A stretch of DNA of 64,000 bases from Spiroplasma phoeniceum (GTDB taxonomy: Bacteria; Bacillota_I; Bacilli_A; Mycoplasmatales; Mycoplasmataceae): NCBI GenBank assembly GCA_026239495.1, contig CP110830.1:1612001-1676000 (forward strand), given 5' to 3'. Shown one piece after another: positions 2,433 through 60,248 of the stretch. The position numbers and the translations under genes were made by a program. Numbering within the stretch: position 1 is the first letter of the stretch; every line of letters begins with the position of its first letter. The notes beneath the pieces were generated by a model that searched no databases, was not told the origin of the DNA, and saw nothing but the letters and a program-made list of their open reading frames with translations.

Positions 2433-3461
2433 AGACTTCTTGCATAACCTAATCTAATTATTTCAAAATTCCTATAAAATATTTTTAAATTAAAATAGAA
2501 ATTATAGGAGATTAAAATTATGAAATTTGATAAATTTAATTTTATTAATGATAAAGAATTATTGCGATTAACCGGAGCAAAATAGAAAAATTTAAAAAAG
2601 GTGGCAAAACTAATAAATTATCACTATAAAATCGGATACTGATGACTTTATCGTATTGACGAGAATATCGGACTTATTTTCATCTTGCTAAAAGTTTTGA
2701 TATTAGTGAATCTAGTTGTTATCGCAATATCAAGTGAATTGAAGATATTTTAATTAAACAATCTGATTTTCAAAAACTCGCTAGTAAAAAATCACTAATA
2801 AATGATTATTTTAATGATAAAATTATTATTATTGATGTTGCCGAAACCCCAATCCAACGCCCAAAAAAAACAAAAACAATCTTATTCTGGTAAAAAGAAA
2901 AAACACACAATTAAAACACAAGTAATTATCGAACAAGAAACCAAAAAAATTATTGCAACAAGTTTTTCGCTTGGAAAAAAACATGATTATGCTTTATTTA
3001 AAGAATCAAAAATCTCAATTTTAAAAAATACCAAATTAATAGTTGATAGTGGTTATCAAGGAATTCAAAAAATTCACAATAATGTTCTAATACCTACAAA
3101 AAAAACAAAGAAAAACCCTTTAAATAAAGTACAAAAACAACGTAATAGAATAGTTTCAAAAATGAGAATTATTATTGAAAATATTTTTGCTATTCTTAAA
3201 AAATTTAAAATTATTACAGAAAAATATCGTAATCAAAGAAAACGATTTAGTTTAAGATTTAATTTAATTGCTTCAATTTATAATTTGCAGTTATCATAGA
3301 AGATTTATTTAAAATTAAAGAATTTAAATAATAAATTCATTTTTTGTTGTGGCAAAATATTAAATTTTTAAATAAAAAACATAATTAATTAAAATTATAT
3401 TTTTCTATTAGCGTCTTTTTACAAATATTTGCAATTTTTTAATAGGTTATGCAAGAAGTCT
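2433..3461 (+). mobile_element. IS5-like element copy A (defective)
   Basis: Bounded by inverted repeats AGACTTCTTGCATAACCTA and TAGGTTATGCAAGAAGTCT with TA on both sides. It belongs to the same family as nine other copies in the window (full length about 1070 bp). An internal deletion after codon 21 of the transposase makes it shorter. It sits inside the IS3 orfB. Confidence 0.9.
2520..3299 (+). pseudogene. IS5-family transposase, copy A
   Basis: Reads MKFDKFNFINDKELLRLTGA, then loses about 35 codons, then resumes in the DDE domain. The -1 frame is open from about 2802 to 3299, with VDSGYQG (second D) and IIENIFAILKKFKI (catalytic E region). The conserved G after the A7 heptamer is lost, so the two frames no longer join. 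Confidence 0.85.
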
Positions 3462-3834
3462 AATTAATAAAATTAAACAAAAAAAGATCTCAGTAACATA
3501 ATAATTCATTCAGATCATGGATTTCAATACACATCAAAAATATATAATAATAAATGTATATATAATGAGATTAGAATTTCTATCGGTAAAAATTATCATT
3601 GTGCTGATAATATTGTTATTGAAAGTTTTCATTCTTTATTAAAAAAGCAACAATTCATAACAATATTTATTTATCTCATGATGAATATATTAATGATGTT
3701 AAAAAATGAAATAAATGATATTCAAGTCGTAAAGAAAAAGATGTAGTGGTCTTCTTGCATAACCTAATATAATTATTTTAAAATTCCTATAAAATATTTT
3801 TAAATTAAAATAGAAATTATAGGAGATTAAAATT

Positions 3835-4820
3835 ATGAAATTTGATAAATTTAATTTTATTAATGATAAACAATTATTGCGATTAACCGGAGCAAAAAAA
3901 AGCTACTTTTAATAAAATGTTAAATATTTTACAAGTAGCTGAAATAGAAAAATTTAAAAAAAGTGGCAAAACTAATAAATTATCACTAGAAAATCGGGTA
4001 GTAAGAAAAAGGTTGAGGTTTTGGTATAAAAAGTATTTTTTTACTATTATTGATGAATTTAAAACACTAATAAATCAGGATTTTTAAAAATTTATCCAAT
4101 TATTTTATTTATATTTTTTATAAAACCTCAACTTTTGTAATGCTATCGAAAATCGGCTACTGATGACTTTATCGTATTGACGAGAATATCGGACTTATTT
4201 TCATCTTGCTAAAAGTTTTGATATTAATGAATCTAGTTGTTATCGCAATATCAAGTGAGTTGAAGATATTTTAATTAAACACTCTTATTTTCAACAAATC
4301 GCTGGTAAAAAATCGCTAATAAATTATTATTTTAATGATAAAACCATTATTATTGATGTTACAAAAACCCCAATCCAACGCCCAAAAAAAGACAAAAACA
4401 ATCTTATTCTGGTAAAAAGAAAAAACACACCATTAAAACACAAGTAATTATCGAACAAGAAATCAAAAAAATTATTGCAACAAGTTTTTCGCTTGAAAAA
4501 AAACATGATTATGCTTTATTTAAAGAATCAAAAATCTTAATTTTAAAAAATGCCAAATTAATAGTTGATAGTGGTTATCAAGGAATTCAAAAAAAATCAC
4601 AATAATGTTATAATACCTAAAAAAAACAAAGAAAAACCCTTTAAATAAAGTACAAAAACAACGTAATAGAATAGTTTCAAAAATAAGAATTATTATTGAA
4701 AATATTTTTGCTATTCTTAAAAAATTTAAAATTATTACAGAAAAATATCGTAATTGAAGAAAACGATTTAGTTTAAGATTTAATTTAATTGCTTCAATTT
4801 ATAATTTACAGTTAGCACAG
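3835..4820 (+). pseudogene. IS5-family transposase, copy B
   Basis: N-terminus MKFDKFNFINDKQLLRLTGA followed by a frameshift in a poly-A run, the MITE insertion after KLSLENR, and further indels in the C-terminal half. The stop codon at the usual place is mutated (TAG to CAG). Confidence 0.85.
3998..4147 (+). repeat. MITE-like 150-bp repeat, copy M1
   Basis: Starts GTAGTAAGAAAAAGGTTGAGG and ends CCTCAACTTTTGTAATGCTATC, an imperfect terminal inverted repeat of about 25 bp. Flanked by a perfect 9-bp direct repeat GAAAATCGG (3989-3997 and 4148-4156). The interior has no coding potential. Three further copies are at 24086, 27120 and 35414. Confidence 0.85.
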
Positions 4821-49387: not shown

Positions 49388-50248
49388 CTAAAAAATATTA
49401 ATAAATAAAATTCGTCATTTTTTATTTATATCTTTTTGAAAATAATATTTCTGATTTGGAAAATATTCTTTTACTAATTTTTCTAAATCTTTTTTTTGTT
49501 CATAACCATGTTCAAAACATAAAATGCCATTTTTATTAACAACCTTCTGTCAATTTTTAAAAATTTCTCGATAAAAATATAGGCCATCAATATCACCAAA
49601 CAAAGCAACATGTGGCTCATAATTTTTAACGCGATTACTAATATTTTGATTCTTTGGAATATAAGGTGGGTTACAAACTAGCAGATCAGCTTTAATCTTA
49701 TTTTTAATAAATGGTTCTAGCAGATCACCTTCCAATAATTTAACATTTTTGCAATTTAACTGCTTAATATTTCTTTTTGCTATTTTTAATGCTTCAGTTG
49801 AAATATCGCTAGCATAAATTGTTAAGCTTGTATTTTCTAAACCTAAACTAATTGCAATTGCTCCGCTCCCAGTTCCAATATCAATTAAAGTTAATTGTTC
49901 ATCACCATTATTAAGCAATATTTCATCAATTATAATATTAATATTATCAACGAATTCTTCTGTTTCATAGCGAGGGACTAAAACATTATAATCAACATAA
50001 AAATCATATCCATAAAAATGTTGTAAATTAGTAATATGTTGGATTGGTTTTCCATTACGATATGCCGTTAATTGTTGTCAGTAATCATAAATCTTAAAAT
50101 TAATTTTATCATTTTGAATTGCATATAATTTTGCTAATGAAGTTTCCATAAAAAATGCTATTAAAATTTTAATATCGGCAAGATAGTTAGAATTATTCGA
50201 GTCTTTCAAATAATCTTCTGACTTTTTAATTAATTCATTAACTGTCAT
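49388..50248 (-). CDS. prmC: Release factor glutamine methyltransferase
   Basis: 286 residues. Methylates the GGQ glutamine of release factors using SAM. SAM-site motif LIDIGTGSGAIAISL (about residues 116-130) and catalytic NPPYIPKNQ (about 185-193); VPRYETEEFVD is the usual pre-motif. TGA-Trp in the N-terminal part. The ATG overlaps the stop of prfA (TAATG), its own substrate gene. Confidence 0.93.
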
Positions 50249-51324
50249 TAGTTTCCTTCCATTTTCAATCTTTGTTCTTCATTAATTAATTCTACTATAA
50301 TTTCATCTAAATTACCTTCCATAATTTGGTCTAATTTTTGTAGTGTTAAATTAATACGATGATCATTAACCCGATTCTGAGGATAATTATATGTTCGAAT
50401 TTTTTCGCTCCGGTCGCCTGTTCCTACTGCGTCTTTTCTTAAATTTCCGCGCTCTTCATTAATTTTACGTTGCTGTTCTTCATATAATTTACTTCGTAAA
50501 TGTTGCATTGCTAATGCCTTATTATCATGTTGACTGCGGCCATCTTGGGAAGTTACAACAACTCCTGTAGGTAAATGAGTGATTCGAACAGCTGAATCAG
50601 TTGTATTAACATGTTGCCCCCCCGCTCCTGAAGCACGGTAAGTATCAATTTTTAAATCAGCAGCTTTAATTTTAAAATCAACTTCTTCAATTTCTGGTAA
50701 AACAGCAACGGTTGCTGTTGATGTATGTACTCGCCCTTTGCTTTCTGTTTTTGGAATTCGTTGAACACGATGTGCTCCTGATTCAAATTTCATTTTTGAA
50801 TAAACGCGGTCTCCTTTAATCATAAAGGAAATTGTAGAAAAGCCGCCTGCTTCTGATTCATTTGCTTCAATTAATTCTACTTTTCAATTTTGTTGTTCTG
50901 AATATTTTATATACATTCGATATAAATCACCGGCAAAAATGTTTCCTTCATCACCACCTGCTGCTCCACGAATTTCAAAAATAACATTCTTATCATCATT
51001 AGGATCTTTTGGCAATAATACTACTTTTAATTCTGCTATAAGTTTTTCTTTTCTTATTTCTGAAGTTTTTAATTCTTCTTTTGCTAATTCAATTAAATCA
51101 TAATCCTTTTCTGTCTCTAAAATTAATTTTGCTTCATTAATATTATTTAAAACATTTTTATAATTTAAGTATAAAGCAACAGTTTCCTCTAATTGTGCTT
51201 GTTCTTTTGATAAACTAGTTAACTTTTTTACATCATTAACTATTTCTGGTTTTGTTAATTCTTCATTAATTAAATTTCGCCGCTTTAACATCGTTTCTAA
51301 TCGTTCAATTGTTTTTTGATTTAT
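50248..51324 (-). CDS. prfA: Peptide chain release factor 1
   Basis: 358 residues if begun at 51324. Recognises UAA/UAG stops. GGQ motif in [17 protein letters not shown] and the [18 protein letters not shown] stretch are intact. The usual N-terminus MNxKTIERLE is present only if the first codon is ATA (ATA AAT CAA AAA ACA ATT GAA), placed 9 nt after GAGG. The first in-frame ATG (51291, MLKRRN) has no ribosome site and would remove conserved residues. UGA being sense, RF1 is the only class-I release factor needed. Confidence 0.9.
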
Positions 51325-51402: not shown

Positions 51403-52479
51403 AGACTTATTGCGTATCCTATTAAAAAATTGCAAATATTTATAAAAAGACACTAATAAAAAAATATAATTTTAATTAATTATGTTTTTTATTTAAAAAT
51501 TTAATATTTTGCCACAACAAAAAATGAATTTATTATTTAAATTCTTTAATTTTAAATAAATATTCTATGCTAACTGCAAATTATAAATTGAAGCAATTAA
51601 ATTAAATCTTAAACTAAATCGTTTTCTTCGATTACGATATTTTTCTGTAATAATTTTAAATTTTTTAAGAATAGCAAAAATATTTTCAATAATAATTCTC
51701 ATTTTTGAAACTATTATATTACGTTGTTTTTGTACTTTATTTAAAGGGTTTTTCTTTGTTTTTTTTTGTAGGTATTAGAATATTATTGTGAATTTTTTGA
51801 ATTCCTTGATAAACACTATCAACTATTAATTTGGTATTTTTTAAAATTGAGCTTTTTGATTCTTTAAATAAAGCATAATAACGTTTTTTTCCAAACGAAA
51901 AACTTGTTGCAATAATTTTTTTGGTTTCTTGTTCGATAATTACTTGTGTTTTAATGGCGTGTTTTTTCTTTTTGCCAGAATAAGATTGTTTTTGTCTTTT
52001 TTTGGGCGTTGAATTGAGGTCTCGGTAGCATCAATAATAATAGTTTTATCATTAAAATAATCATTTATTAGTGATTTTTTACCAGCGAGTTGTTGAAAAT
52101 CAGAGTGTTTAATTAAAATATCTTCAATTCACCTGATATTGCGATAACAAATGGGTTCACTAACATCAAAACTTTTAGCAAGATGAAAATAAGTCCGATA
52201 TTCTCGTCAATACGATAAAGTCATCAGTAGCCGATTTTCTAGTGATAATTTATTAGTTTTGCCACCTTTTTTAAATTTTTCTATTTCAGCTACTTGTAAA
52301 ATATTTAACATTTTATTAAAAGTAGCTTTTTTTGCTACGGTTAATCGCAATAATTCTTTATCATTAATAAAATTAAATTTATCAAATTTCATAATTTTAA
52401 TCTCCTATAATTTCTATTTTAATTTAAAAATATTTTATAGGAATTTTAAAATAATTAGATTAGGTTATGCAAGAAGTCT
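51403..52479 (-). mobile_element. IS5-like element copy H (defective)
   Basis: 1077 bp, older subtype. Left end AGACTTATTGCGTATCC is slightly diverged; right end GGTTATGCAAGAAGTCT. Inserted between prfA and the short remnant upstream, a position that does not break either gene. Confidence 0.9.
51565..52392 (-). pseudogene. IS5-family transposase, copy H
   Basis: OrfA starts MKFDKFNFINDKELLRLTVA and is open. The OrfB frame has one extra T in a run of nine near 51765 and loses its G-Y-Q motif (VYQ). Total 828 nt instead of 827. Confidence 0.85.
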
Positions 52480-52832: not shown

Positions 52833-53417
52833 TTAGTATGTTACTTCATGACAATGACGACAGCGAGCTTCATATTTATCCTTTTCACCAATTAAAACAA
52901 TTGGATCACAATAATTAGCTGTTTTCCCATTAATTAAGCGTTGGGTTCTATTTGCTAAATTTCCACATTTAACACAAATTGCATGCAATTTCTTAACCTC
53001 TTCTGCTTGTGTCATTAATTTTTCAACATTAATAAAGGCTTCGCCTCGAAAATCTTTATCTAAACCATTAACAATAACAATAATTCCTTTGTCTGCTAAA
53101 GAATTAGCAAGTTTAACAATATTATTATCAAAAAATTGAACTTCATCAATCCCGACAACATTTGTTGTTGGTTTTAGATTTGTTAATAACTCTTCAGAAT
53201 TATTAACTGATATTGCTTCAACTGCTTTTTTGCTATGGCTAACAACTTGGTTTTCACTATAACGATTATCAATTGTTGGTTTAAAAACTTGAATTTCAAA
53301 TTTAGCATAACCTAGGCGAACTAAGCGGCGAATAAACTCTTCGGTTTTTCCAGCAAACATACAGCCAGTTATAACTTCTATTCAGCCTATTTGAGCTTTA
53401 CTATTTAAAAAATACAT
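52833..53417 (-). CDS. tdk: Thymidine kinase
   Basis: 194 residues. Salvages thymidine to dTMP. P-loop GCMFAGKTEE (about residues 18-27), catalytic DEVQFF (about 97-102) and a C-terminal zinc site (CVKCGN, CRHCHE). Usual family length. Its start overlaps the end of nrnA by 17 nt. tdk next to prfA is a conserved Firmicutes arrangement. Confidence 0.95.
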
Positions 53418-54381
53418 TCTTAACCTCCATATATTTAATGTTATTTTTAATTAAAAAACTTAGGTCTTTTAAAACTCGTTCTAAATCTTCTCACTGATAA
53501 ATTTTTGCACCGCTTGCTAACTGATGACCGCCACCACAGTACTTTTCTGCTACTTTATTAATAATATAAGTATTGCTACGAATGCTAAGGTTTATATAAC
53601 CCTCTGCTTTATTTTCAATTACTCACATTCAAATTTTAAATTCTTTAATATTAATCATAATATTAACCCATGGTTTAACAGTCTCATAACTCATATTATG
53701 TTCTTTTAACATTTCGTCAGTTATCTTAACATAACTAATTTCTTTATCATAAATAACTAGTTGCGATAACAAATAATTTTTAAAGCGTACATTAACTCAT
53801 GATTCTTCATATAAATTTTGATAAATTGATTGCAAATCAAAACCTGTCGCAACTAATTGACCTGCTAACATAAAAGTATTGTGGCAAGTTTTACTATACA
53901 TAAAACGATTTGAATCTGTTACAATTCCAGTAAAAATTAATTTGGCTGCCTTTGGTGTTACTATTAATTTTGATGTTAAAACTAACTCGGCAATCATTTC
54001 TGAAGCTGCAATTTTAGTTTCATCAATTCATTGTATATCACCAAATGGTGTAACATTAGGATGATGGTCAATTTTAATAACTTCTTTTGCTTTCTGCCAA
54101 TATTTACTATCAATTCGTTCAATGTTCGCTGTATCAGTCACAATTACTAATGCATCTTTATAATCTTCTGTTTGAAGAAGATCGGGTGTTGCCAAGAAGG
54201 CTAAAAAATCATTTGGTTCACCATCAACTAACACCTTCTTATTTGGAAAATTATCTTTAATAAATTGTGCTAATCCAAATGCCGAACCATATGCATCGCC
54301 ATCTGGTGAAATATGACGTAAACAAATAATTGTCTTATAATCTTTAATTTTTTGTAAAATAATTCCTTTTAAATCTTGCAT
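53401..54381 (-). CDS. nrnA: DHH/DHHA1 phosphoesterase, NrnA-type
   Basis: 326 residues. Degrades short oligonucleotides and, in relatives, pAp. DHH-family motifs: HISPDGDAYGSAFGL (motif I), VTDTANIERID, IDHHPN (motif III), VTDSNRF, and the DHHA1 end CGGGHQLASGAKI. TGA-Trp codons in DIQWIDETK and others. ATG 54381 follows a GAGG site. Stop lies inside tdk. Confidence 0.88.
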
Positions 54382-54394
54382 TTGTTTTCCTCGC

Positions 54395-56320
54395 TTATAT
54401 GTTAGCAACTAAATTATTGTTAACTTTATCATAAACTAATAATGCTTTCTTTTCAAAATATATTGTTGTTGTTTTTTTAAAATTTAGTTCTTTTTCTCAC
54501 ACTAAAATTTTAAAAATAACTTCATCATTAACTTCAAAAAAGCAAACAATTGATTTAAAGACTTTTTTAATTGACTTAACATGTCCTTTATATAATAAAT
54601 TTAAATCTTTGTTAAACTGCTTTGTCTTTTGGAATGAGATTAAGTTTGGATTAACTGCTAAATAATATTCTTTTTGATCAATTAATTTAGTTCTTTTAGG
54701 TAATTTAATCTTAATTTTTTCATTTTTTAAAACATTTTCTGCTATAGAATATTTCATGATAAAAACATTTTCTGAACTATTATACATTATTTGATATAAA
54801 TTAATTGTATTAGGTAAAAAATCAGCATGATTTTTTGACATCAATTTATAATTATTATCCTTATCAAAAAATAATAATTGTGTAGCATAATTTTTAATAT
54901 TCTCAATGTTCTTTGTTAAAACTAAAAAAGTTAACTGTGGATTATAGTTTTTTAAACTAAGTAAAATTTCATTTAATTCATTTGCTTCATTATGAGTTAA
55001 ATTGTCAAAAGTATTATGTAAAATAATTAATTCTTTCTTACTTAAAATGGCATTAATCAATCTAATTTTAGTATGATCAAAACTACTTAAATTTTTAGTA
55101 AGTTTAAATCAATTCATTTTAATATTTAAATTAATCATTAATTTTTTAACTTCTTCGAAAGCTTGATTATAAACTGTTACAACTTTTTCATTTGCTTCTT
55201 CAATAGCAAGTGAATTATCTTTTTCACGAGTTTCTAATGTATTATTTAATAATTCTAAATGATATTTATGAAAATATTCTAAAACTTTTCCCTTAATAAT
55301 TGTTGCTTCATCTGGTAATAAATTTGCAATTAATTGTTCTTGTTTTTGATTATAGTTAAATCATTGGTCTTCTGATAATTTTGTTCAAGTAATTATATTC
55401 GAGGAATTACTTTTATTTAAAATTCCTTTAATAACACTCTTATGTTTACTATCTTTTAAAACCATATTTATAACATTAAGACGATATTTTTTTAATGCTT
55501 TTCGTGCTTTAATTAAAAGATAACGTTCATATGTAATTTCAGTCTGCAATATTTTTAAATACTTTTCACAAACTAATTTTGCCCCAATAAAAACAAAACT
55601 TTTATCTTTAAGTTTTCTTTTTTTAGCAATTTCATAACAATCACACAAATAATCTAAGTCAGAAATATAATAAATTTTATCTCATAAAGCTTGTAAAAAT
55701 GAAAGATAGCCTTCATATACACGAATTTCTTCTCTTTTATAAGTATAGGTATGTAAACTTTGAATAAAAATTGAATCTTTATCATCATCTAAAATTTTAC
55801 TAATTTCTTTTTTATGGAATTCACTAATTTGAGTTAAATAAGTCTCAATTCATTCTTCTTTAATATGAATTGAATTATTAAAATATTCATTAATGATTTT
55901 ATCTATTTTTAATATTAAATCTTGTTTATTTAAATCATTACCAATAAAAACTAAATTTTTATAAAAATATTTATTTTTATTATATTTTAATGAACTATCA
56001 TGTAAAAATTTTGGCGTTTTTAAAATATGATAAGCCAAACGTAATTTTGTTGGTAAAAAAGCTAATCTTAATGGTCCGGGTGATACATAGCCAATTCTCC
56101 GTTCTTTTGGTAATAAAGTTGTGATATTTCTATTGTTTAAATAAATCTTTCCATTACGTGGTTTTTTCTTTCCCAATAACAATTTTAAAAAATATAATTG
56201 TGAAAACTTATTCTCAAAATGAGTCCCCAAAACTTCTTGACTATCAACACTAAAATTTAAATCACTAAAAATAATTTTTTTATATCGTTTATACTTTAAA
56301 TTATTAATTTTCAAACCCAT
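54395..56320 (-). CDS. ABC-ATPase-like protein without Walker motifs
   Basis: 641 residues. The N-terminus NNLKYKRYKKIIFSDLNF, KKPRNGKIYLNNRNITTLLP and KERRIGYVSPGPL follows the layout of MalK/UgpC-type ATPases, but the Walker A position is VLGTHFENKFSQ, with no GxxGxGK. An insert of about 300 charged residues follows, then SSFDHTKIRLINAILSKKEL and LIILHNTFDN in place of signature and Walker B (no LxDE), and a C-terminal beta-rich end. It cannot bind ATP in the usual way. The related MG187-type proteins of Mycoplasma also have large inserts but keep the motifs. Confidence 0.72.
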
Positions 56321-56516: not shown

Positions 56517-56822
56517 TTATTCTGCCTTTTGTTCATCAGATTTTGGTTTTGCTATTTTTTTGTTAAGTTCTTTTTGTGCTTTTGATGCTTTTTCTGTTTG
56601 TTTTACTAACTCTTCTTTTTTATTAAATTTAGATTTAAATCGTTCAATACGTCCCGCTGCATTAGCAAACTGTTGACTTCCTGTATAGAAGGGGTGGCAT
56701 GAAGAACAAGTATCAACTTTTAATTCTTCTCCTTTAGTAGAACCACTTATGTACTTAGTTCCACAAGTTATACACATAATTTTAGTTTCAAAATATTTTG
56801 GATGGATTCCTTCTCTTGCCAT
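56517..56822 (-). CDS. rpmE: 50S ribosomal protein L31, type A
   Basis: 101 residues, MAREGIHPKYFETKIMCITC... The zinc form: CITCG and CSSCHPFYTG supply the cysteines. A Lys/Glu-rich C-terminal tail of about 30 residues (KKEELVKQTEKASKAQKEL) exceeds the usual length. GAGGTGAG site sets ATG 56822 rather than upstream codons. First gene of the translation-related cluster. Confidence 0.95.
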   Translation of the reverse strand: MAREGIHPKYFETKIMCITCGTKYISGSTKGEELKVDTCSSCHPFYTGSQQFANAAGRIERFKSKFNKKEELVKQTEKASKAQKELNKKIAKPKSDEQKAE

Positions 56823-57785: not shown

Positions 57786-58862
57786 AGACTTATTGCGTAA
57801 CCTATTAAAAAATTGCAAATATTTGTAAAAAGACACTAATAGAAAAATATAATTTTAATTAATTATGTTTTTTATTTAAAAATTTAATATTTTGCCACAA
57901 CAAAAAATAAATTTATTATTTAAATTCTTTAATTTTAAATAAATCTTCTATGCTAGCTGCAAATTATAAATTGAAGCAATTAAATTAAATCTTAAACTAA
58001 GTCGTTTTCTTCGATTACGATATTTTTCTGTAATAATTTTAAATTTTTTAAGAATAGCAAAAAATATTTTCAATAATAATTCTCATTTTTGAAACTATTC
58101 TATTACGTTGTTTTTGTACTTTATTTAAAGGGTTTTTCTTTGTTTTTTTTGTAGGTATTAGAACATTATTGTGAATTTTTTGAATTCCTTGATAACCACT
58201 ATCAAATATTAATTTGGTATTTTTTAAAATTGAGATTTTTGATTCTTTAAATAAAGCATAATCATGTTTTTTTCCAAGCGAAAAACTTGTTGCAATAATT
58301 TTTTTGGTTTCTTGTTAGATAATTACTTTTGTTTTAATGGTGTTTTTTTTCTTTTTACCAGAATAAGATTGTTTTTGTCTTTTTTTGGGCGTTGGATTGG
58401 GGTTTCGGTAACATCAACAATAATAGTTTTATCATTAAAATAATCATTTATTAGTGATTTTTTACCAGCGAGTTGTTGAAACTCATAGTGTTTAATTAAA
58501 ATATCTTCAATTCACTTGATATTGCTATAACAACTAGATTCACTAATATCAAAACTTTTAGCAAGATGAAAATAAGCCTGATATTATCCTCAATACGACA
58601 AGGTCATCAGTAGCCGATTTTCTAGTGATAATTTATTAGTTTTGCCGCCTTTTTTAAATTTTTCTATTTCAGCTACTTGTAAAATATTTAACATTTTATT
58701 AAAAATAGCTTTTTTTGCTCCTGTTAATCGCAATAATTCTTTATCATTAATAAAATTAAATTTATCAAATTTCATAATTTTAATCTCCTATAATTTCTAT
58801 TTTAATTTAAAAATATTTTATAGGAATTTTAAAATAATTAGATTAGGTTGTGCAAGAAATCT
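57786..58862 (-). mobile_element. IS5-like element copy I (defective)
   Basis: 1077 bp, older subtype; left end AGACTTATTGCGTAACC, right end GGTTGTGCAAGAAATCT. It lies between the oxidoreductase remnant and the integrated microvirus. Confidence 0.9.
57948..58775 (-). pseudogene. IS5-family transposase, copy I
   Basis: OrfA starts MKFDKFNFINDKELLRLTGA. An extra A near 58062 breaks OrfB, and GAA to TAA near 58318 adds a stop in the TKTQVI-IEQE stretch. 828 nt instead of 827. Confidence 0.85.
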
Positions 58863-59104: not shown

Positions 59105-59227
59105 CTAAAATCTAATTCTACCACGAGATGTGGGGCGAAACAAATTAGCAGCACGAACAGTGCGAGCGGTAGTTGTTAAATAACGACGGTGGGCTGCAGT
59201 ATTTCTTACTTTTTTACGAAATGCCAT
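59105..59227 (-). CDS. Microvirus DNA-binding protein, J/VP8-like
   Basis: 40 residues, MAFRKKVRNTAAHRRYLTTT ... ending RPTSRGRIRF. About one third Arg/Lys. Position and composition match the small basic packaging protein that accompanies microvirus DNA into the capsid. AAAGGAG site. Intact. Confidence 0.75.
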   Translation of the reverse strand: MAFRKKVRNTAAHRRYLTTTARTVRAANLFRPTSRGRIRF

Positions 59228-59275
59228 TTTAAAAATTTCTCCTTTCATGTATAATAACATTAAGAATAAAAAATA

Positions 59276-59428
59276 TTATTTTTTATCTTTAACATTTCGC
59301 TTCAAAACTTTAATTCTGTCGTGAAGAATATGTTGTCTATTAACAAGTAAGCTAACATATCCTATGCCAGAATTTTGAACACGGAAAACTAAATTATGTC
59401 TCGCGTTATTAATGCGGTCATTTTTTAT
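59276..59428 (-). other. Open continuation after rep, possible small gene
   Basis: The frame of rep stays open after its TAA: IKNDRINNARHNLVFRVQNS, YVSLLVNRQHILHDRIKVLK, to a TAA at 59276. No ATG; an ATA directly follows the rep stop. Either a small coupled gene with a non-ATG start, or rep once extended 50 codons further. Confidence 0.4.
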
Positions 59429-60248
59429 TTATTGTAAATGTTCACTATTCTGTTTTTCATAAAGACGATCAAAATAACGAGGCGGTTGTACTTTAAGTAA
59501 GCCCTTGTCAGTATTTAAATTAACAAGATCAAATTTATAAATTTGATCTTTAAATTCATCAAAATAATTTTTACCAATTCCTTTACTCATGTACAATTTT
59601 TCAGGATCAATACCTAATTTTTCATAATCTAACTTAGATCTTAACTTCTTCAAAGTATAACGCACTACATAGCCAACGCTCTGATAGGTAACACGACCTA
59701 TTTTATGTATACCTTTGCCTCAAATACGATCAGCCAATTTACTAAAAAAGTAAAAATGACCCAAATTAGACTTTTCACCAGTATGAATAAGGTGTTTATC
59801 CCAAAAAATACCAAAGGGGAGACCAAAAAAAACAAAGGTTATAATGGGGTCTATTCGTGCGAGAACCATATTCTTAACTAGCTAAATATCTAATATTTCT
59901 AATTCCTTGACGAGTAAAAACTTGACGCAAAGATTCAACAAATCTTCTTAAATCATAATAACTAATCGCTGGAATGCCTCTATCATTAACAGGTAAAAAT
60001 TCACCAGCATAAGTTAAAGTAATAAATCAATTATCTTTTGAGCTCTTACCTTCTAAAGCAGAACGAATGGCTCGCTCTTTAGAATTATCTAATTTACAAC
60101 CGATACACTTGCGACAAGGAACCGAACTATTACTTTCGTAATTCATATTCATATCTAATTTAGCAACATCAATATTACTGTATCTTTTAAAACTTATTTT
60201 TTCGCCTTTATTTAAATTATAAACCTGAATAGGTTTTAAACACGCCAT
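59429..60248 (-). pseudogene. Microvirus replication initiator (Rep/VP4), broken
   Basis: MACLKPIQVYNLNKGEKISF, PCRKCIGCKLDNSKERAIRS (Cys cluster typical of gokushovirus Rep), NWFITLTYAGEFLP, then a TAA before EYGSRTNRPHYN and a one-base shift after it to FFGLPFGIFWDKHLIHTGEK, TYQSVGYVVRYTLKKLRSKL (the VxYTxKK nicking-tyrosine motif) and RYFDRLYEKQNSEHLQ. The enzyme would nick the origin for rolling-circle replication. Nonsense plus frameshift make it inactive. AGGAGGAG site. Confidence 0.85.

Follow-up and report, generated by a model that had tools for sequence, protein, structure and literature searches.

A stretch of 64,000 nucleotides from the genome of Spiroplasma phoeniceum (contig CP110830.1, positions 1,612,001 to 1,676,000 of the forward strand; in the following called the window) contains, at 54395-56320 on the minus strand, the gene that is the subject of this report. 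Gene and product are here labelled X; f1 stands for the family of the window, f5 and f9 for other families of its order. The initial annotation saw in X a long, intact gene between rpmE and nrnA, and this was borne out. The reading frame is open under genetic code 4, starts with ATG and runs uninterrupted through 641 residues, six TGA codons being read as tryptophan, and both neighbours were confirmed. The positions of X, its parts and its neighbours are compiled in Table 1. To judge from its sequence, X is a relative of ATP-binding cassette (ABC) ATPases that has lost the motifs for handling ATP, and its invariant residues are gathered in an insert, where they probably form a metal site.

That X is ABC-like but devoid of the P-loop, the signature and the acid pair of Walker B had been read from the window's copy. 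The loss turned out to be general. It was followed in an alignment of 72 intact copies of X (58 from f1, 5 from f9 and 9 from f5), with 21 insert-bearing UgpC-type ATPases as controls. Walker A (pattern GxxxxGK[ST]) and the signature motif (L[ST][GW]G[QEM]) are each present in 0/72 copies of X, as opposed to 21/21 controls. At the Walker B position, residues 435-436, the pair DE never occurs; five copies have DD, the others mostly YN, HN or SD. A looser Walker B pattern is found in 6/72 copies, never at 435-436, and in all 21 controls. The histidine of the H-loop is missing at the aligned position 470 in every copy; nine copies have one at 469, which could be an alignment shift. Relatives with intact Walker motifs at the same locus, named beforehand as evidence against the annotation, were met in none of the 72. 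As the motifs are gone in all three families, they were probably lost before f1, f5 and f9 diverged. A protein so altered would neither bind nor hydrolyse ATP in the ABC manner.

Just four positions never vary among the 72 copies: D214, C226, C228 and H354, all of them within the insert. Cysteine and histidine are scarce in the X family (on average 3.8 and 9.8 per protein, respectively), which makes it striking that they occupy three of the four positions. A further Cys or His changes from family to family. H351 is present in all 58 copies of f1, is replaced by lysine or glutamate in the nine copies of f5 and by tyrosine in the five copies of f9; f5 has a third cysteine (CxCxC, 9/9), and f9 has the motif CxCHxxH (5/5). 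Three fixed residues and a shifting fourth are what one expects of a structural site with four metal ligands. We read this pattern as a metal site, probably for zinc. Rad50 and UvrA, which have the ABC fold, also carry an insert between their lobes, and theirs bears zinc. Like them, X has an insert between its ABC lobes, in this case with candidate metal ligands; unlike X, however, they possess intact Walker motifs and zinc motifs of the CxxC type.

The same four residues can be looked at differently. They might be the catalytic site, metal-dependent or thiol-based, of another enzyme, one that joins NrnA and Tdk in acting on nucleotides or RNA. The idea gains from the fact that the sole invariant residues of X are of the catalytic or metal-ligand type and that nrnA is the next gene to X in 60/60 f1 genomes and in 10/10 plus 4/4 of the f5 and f9 loci. 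It loses from the searches of Pfam and NCBIfam, in which the insert showed no convincing similarity to any known enzyme, and from the family-shifting fourth Cys/His, which fits a structural metal site more than a catalytic residue. We rate such an enzyme as quite unlikely.

Table 1. Features of X and its neighbours in the window (aa, amino acid residues of X; fractions refer to the 72 intact copies).
Feature	Position	Strand	Remark
X, putative pseudo-ATPase gene	54395..56320	-	641 aa plus stop, code 4
Lobe I of ABC-like domain, aa 1-95	56036..56320	-	NCBIfam matches aa 1-85; hhalign to UgpC-type
Insert, aa 96-394	55139..56035	-	between Q-loop region and signature region; mostly helical in low-confidence model
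Lobe II of ABC-like domain, aa 395-500	54821..55138	-	NCBIfam, family-profile and hhalign matches
C-terminal domain, aa 501-641	54398..54820	-	resembles MalK-type regulatory domain (hhalign)
Lost Walker A position, aa 32-40 (GTHFENKFS)	56201..56227	-	GK in 0/72 copies
Lost signature position, aa 411-415 (LSSFD)	55076..55090	-	alignment of 72 copies
Lost Walker B position, aa 431-437 (LIILHNT)	55010..55030	-	alignment of 72 copies
Invariant D214	55679..55681	-	72/72
CxC motif, C226 and C228 (CDC), proposed metal ligands	55637..55645	-	each 72/72
HxYH motif, H351, Y353, H354 (HKYH), proposed metal ligands	55259..55270	-	H354 72/72, H351 58/72, Y353 70/72
nrnA (oligoribonuclease / pAp phosphatase)	53401..54381	-	13 bases downstream of X; start chosen at ATG of MQDLKG
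rpmE (ribosomal protein L31)	56517..56822	-	upstream of X; start chosen at internal ATG
tdk (thymidine kinase)	52833..53417	-	named from sequence; conserved neighbour
prfA (release factor)	50248..51291	-	named from sequence; conserved neighbour

The relationship of X to ABC proteins, as judged from profile comparisons, is weak but real. Pfam ABC_tran matched with an E-value of 0.017, which does not reach the family cut-off. In NCBIfam, 26 families matched at E up to 10, and the best 25 of these 26 are ABC ATPases; WtpC leads with E 7.7e-11 and 41.8 bits versus a cut-off of 440 bits, and no family came near its cut-off. The ABC matches fall into two blocks, residues 1-85 and about 374-488, as would be seen if an insert had split an ABC domain. 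In the Protein Data Bank (PDB), the best match of X itself was 2it1 (E 8.8e-4, mainly residues 5-80); the profile of the X family reached 4mki (EcfA2) with E 3.3e-10, both half-domains being matched in order. The large charged insert noticed earlier between the half-domains comprises about 300 residues (about 96-394), with 49 Lys + Arg and 42 Asp + Glu among 299. Its isoelectric point (pI) of 8.9 makes it no more basic than the remainder of the protein (9.86). An unusually basic insert had also been considered as a sign of RNA binding. The idea was dropped, as the pI range of X (8.4-9.9) barely exceeds the one seen in the intact relatives (7.3-9.6). A match to DUF5131 at residues 418-483 (E 0.038), seen in 1/38 members, was dismissed as chance.

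The descent from MalK/UgpC-type ATPases that had been proposed for X was upheld. In hhalign, the X family and the insert-bearing UgpC-type ATPases share 588 aligned columns (E 7.4e-16). Lobe I (E 1.1e-12, score 67.2 versus at most 15.5 in 20 column shuffles) and the C-terminal domain (E 2.7e-4, score 27.7 versus at most 13.6, again in 20) lie far above the shuffles, lobe II slightly. The insert-bearing UgpC/MalK-type ATPases of mollicutes, which we take to be of the MG187 kind, resemble X in having an insert of similar size at the same place and a C-terminal domain. From Walker A to the signature they count 351-534 residues, versus 98 in ten relatives without the insert. They differ from X in that Walker A, Walker B and the signature are intact in all 21; they have few cysteines (1-6 each) and, to the eye, appear to lack the CxC/HxYH pair.

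A profile made from the insert of X matches the inserts of intact UgpC-type ATPases, with E-values from 6.7e-9 to 5.3e-8 in 4/5 f9 genomes and of 9.5e-5 in one f1 genome. The f9 enzyme has Walker A, LSGGQ and LLLDEP. Since the insert of X thus resembles that of ATPases with intact motifs, X is, on sequence grounds, a duplicated, disarmed UgpC/MalK-type ATPase. In a tree of 48 proteins, whose midpoint root serves for drawing only, the 26 rows of X stand on one side of a branch with support 100/100. From the alignments, L002 and L003 were left out as repeats of L011 and L004, and L012 (genome G023) and L016 (genome G019) as frameshifted. The f9 ATPase with its insert of about 300 residues is encoded at 2837-4756 (+) of locus L208 and likewise in L209, L210 and L211.

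Such an ancestry suggests another job for X, as part of an ABC importer: a pseudo-subunit with a regulatory task, which would join or compete with an active ATPase of the MalK/PotA/UgpC type while its C-terminal domain sets the activity. X is related to a UgpC-type subunit, C-terminal domain included, and in f9 two open reading frames (ORFs) of about 340 residues come right after the gene of the intact insert-bearing ATPase, in a permease-like placement, named by position. The distribution of the intact enzyme, however, speaks against this role. It was found at full length in 21/60 f1 genomes, yet not in any of the 14 that belong to the window's genus and gave short ABC matches only; X is found in 60/60. 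X hence seems not to depend on that ATPase, and the latter has been lowered as a candidate partner. Nor is there a permease gene at the X locus, the neighbours being rpmE, nrnA, tdk and prfA, and the lobe surfaces by which ABC dimers pair (Walker A, signature) are lost in X. An importer subunit of this kind is in our view unlikely, though less so than the enzyme considered above.

X is widely kept. By protein search, all 60/60 f1 genomes, from 12 genera, yielded a match. Upon inspection, 58 of these copies were intact and two frameshifted (G019 and G023, both from the window's genus), which may reflect decay or a sequencing error. A profile restricted to the insert detected X in 60/60 f1, 9/9 f5 and 5/5 f9 genomes; of the 320 genomes of the order, the remaining 246 gave no X. 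Such a profile hardly catches ordinary ABC ATPases, and the genome counts of X rest on it. Conservation, which the initial annotation had proposed to check in other Spiroplasma, extends to three families, with X just upstream of nrnA.

The sequence of X is also guarded by selection. In five pairs of moderate divergence (L007-L011; synonymous divergence, dS, 0.19-0.82), the ratio of nonsynonymous to synonymous divergence, dN/dS, amounts to 0.13-0.18; nrnA yields 0.11-0.20 in the same pairs. Within X, the ratio is 0.10-0.15 for the insert and 0.21-0.32 for the C-terminal domain. Three closer pairs gave 0.26-0.33 for X, and the most distant one (L013, dS 0.92) gave 0.35. X is under purifying selection. 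The earlier verdict "probably functional" agrees with these ratios and with the presence of X in 74/74 genomes of the three families. They also bear on the possibility that X is a decaying remnant, retained for no other reason than its position between needed genes. The frameshifted copies in G019 and G023 would suit such a fate, and so would the strong divergence of X, copies from beyond the window's genus being 19-25% identical to that of the window. Yet 72 copies are intact, the gene is retained in every genome of the three families, the selection on it is at the level of nrnA, and the candidate ligand residues are invariant. Decay is accordingly very improbable.

The reading that we prefer, with a probability of roughly 0.6, is that X is a non-ATPase, a pseudo-ATPase with a metal site that acts as a metal-stabilised adaptor or regulator. 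The two ABC lobes would be retained for structural support, closing off the helical insert at its base like a scaffold. The insert would hold the metal, probably Zn2+, by C226, C228, H354 and the family-varying fourth ligand, perhaps together with D214. In this way the metal could pin the turn of the CxC motif to the helix with HxYH, which follows some 125 residues later. The pinned insert would then be a rigid arm, a binding platform, and X would work as an adaptor or regulator, not as an engine. Candidate partners are an importer with a still-active ATPase or the RNA and translation machinery. The neighbouring genes point to RNA turnover and translation, the ancestry to an importer, and the evidence favours neither.

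Several observations weigh against a metal-stabilised adaptor or regulator. That the candidate ligands converge in space is suggested by the conservation pattern; AlphaFold2 models, built from three sequences each, reached a predicted local distance difference test score (pLDDT) of 33 for whole X and of 40 for residues 385-641, which is too low to read. The conserved Cys, His and Asp could be catalytic or redox residues. The binding partners are putative, suggested by neighbourhood or ancestry. Two parts of the hhalign comparison are weak: lobe II (E 0.0093, score 19.2 versus at most 15.4 in 20 shuffles) and insert against insert (E 0.0036, probability 9%, score 28.6 versus at most 18.0 in 20 shuffles). 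The latter value was obtained with 7/21 UgpC rows omitted that have longer inserts; with all 21, E was 0.011 and the score 25.2. Finally, the frameshift in 2/60 f1 copies may mean that the gene is dispensable in places.

X presumably has a counterpart in a minimal cell. In JCVI-syn3.0, derived from Mycoplasma mycoides, MMSYN1_0138 is ABC-like, has lost its ATP site and, in the published passages, stands beside nrnA (0139) and tdk (0140) in the same order as at the X locus. The passage available from PMC6609329 gives 0139 as ytqI/NrnA, quasi-essential, and 0140 as tdk; 0139 appears as NrnA also in a passage of PMC4993169. The equation of X with MMSYN1_0138 is presumed from gene order, the match being one of locus numbers. 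The lost ATP site of MMSYN1_0138 being already in print, the core observation on the ATPase motifs is known for the presumed orthologue. The published passage on it makes no mention of a conserved CxC/HxYH site or of the spread over families. In the literature searched, we found no description of the metal site, the family spread, the descent from insert-bearing UgpC-type ATPases or the conserved Cys/His/Asp set. New here is the four-residue invariant set D214, C226, C228 and H354.

By its position, X would be a gene of the smallest designed genome that was kept without a known function. The question shifts from which ABC transporter it belongs to towards which metal and which partner it binds, and four residues can be named for the purpose. 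X is also a clear case in which the insert of an ATPase subunit has, it seems, outlasted the catalytic core. A far-reaching version of the metal-site reading would make X a disarmed ABC subunit rebuilt around the metal site of its insert, a metalloprotein of a new kind that is nearly essential to mollicutes and cooperates with NrnA and the adjacent translation genes on RNA leftovers, pAp, or the ribosome or release, and thereby fills the place of a minimal-cell gene without known function. We mention this as a speculation that is itself doubtful.

Some details of the searches deserve mention. Applied to the whole class, the insert profile matched in 30/395 genomes, i.e., 29 of f1 and one weak match (G400, E 0.0087). 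A match of 43 residues in G111 (E 7.4e-4) was set aside, as the full family model gave no match, and neither did it at the locus of a weak match in G031 (E 2.9e-5). Other weak matches were seen in G037 (E 8.9e-4) and, as a second one, in G102 (E 0.003). A whole-protein alignment search of the order had hits in 274/298 genomes, mostly ordinary ABC ATPases matched over a short extent, and was rejected as a measure of spread. Only a few candidates per genome were scored in it, and it missed X in G063, G076, G094 and G106, where X was located beside nrnA and rpmE.

The gene order around X is largely constant. In f1, rpmE was inside the examined flank in 54/60 loci (in L051 the match is on the other strand) and outside the short flank in L006, L009, L010, L011, L012 and L022; for the species of L011, L002 places it about 2.9 kb upstream of X. 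A segment of at most 10 kb holds rpmE, X, nrnA, tdk and prfA in the five f9 loci and in the five f5 loci read first. Four further f5 loci have nrnA after X (4/4), with rpmE near in three and distant in G106. Extra DNA separates X from a neighbour in two genomes: in L002 about 2.9 kb from the end of rpmE (3067) to the start of X (5986), in L057 about 1 kb from the end of X (6012) to the start of nrnA (6999). The order is otherwise kept in both.

In the window, an ORF that looks like a transposase, its function being guessed from sequence, is present in two partial copies on the minus strand (51940-52392 and 58584-58775), both of which start MKFDKFNFINDKELLRLT. They flank the block rpmE-X-nrnA-tdk, one on each side. 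ORFs at 59105-60248 on the minus strand are, we presume, similar to genes of filamentous Spiroplasma phages, the one at 59874-60248 being replication-protein-like.
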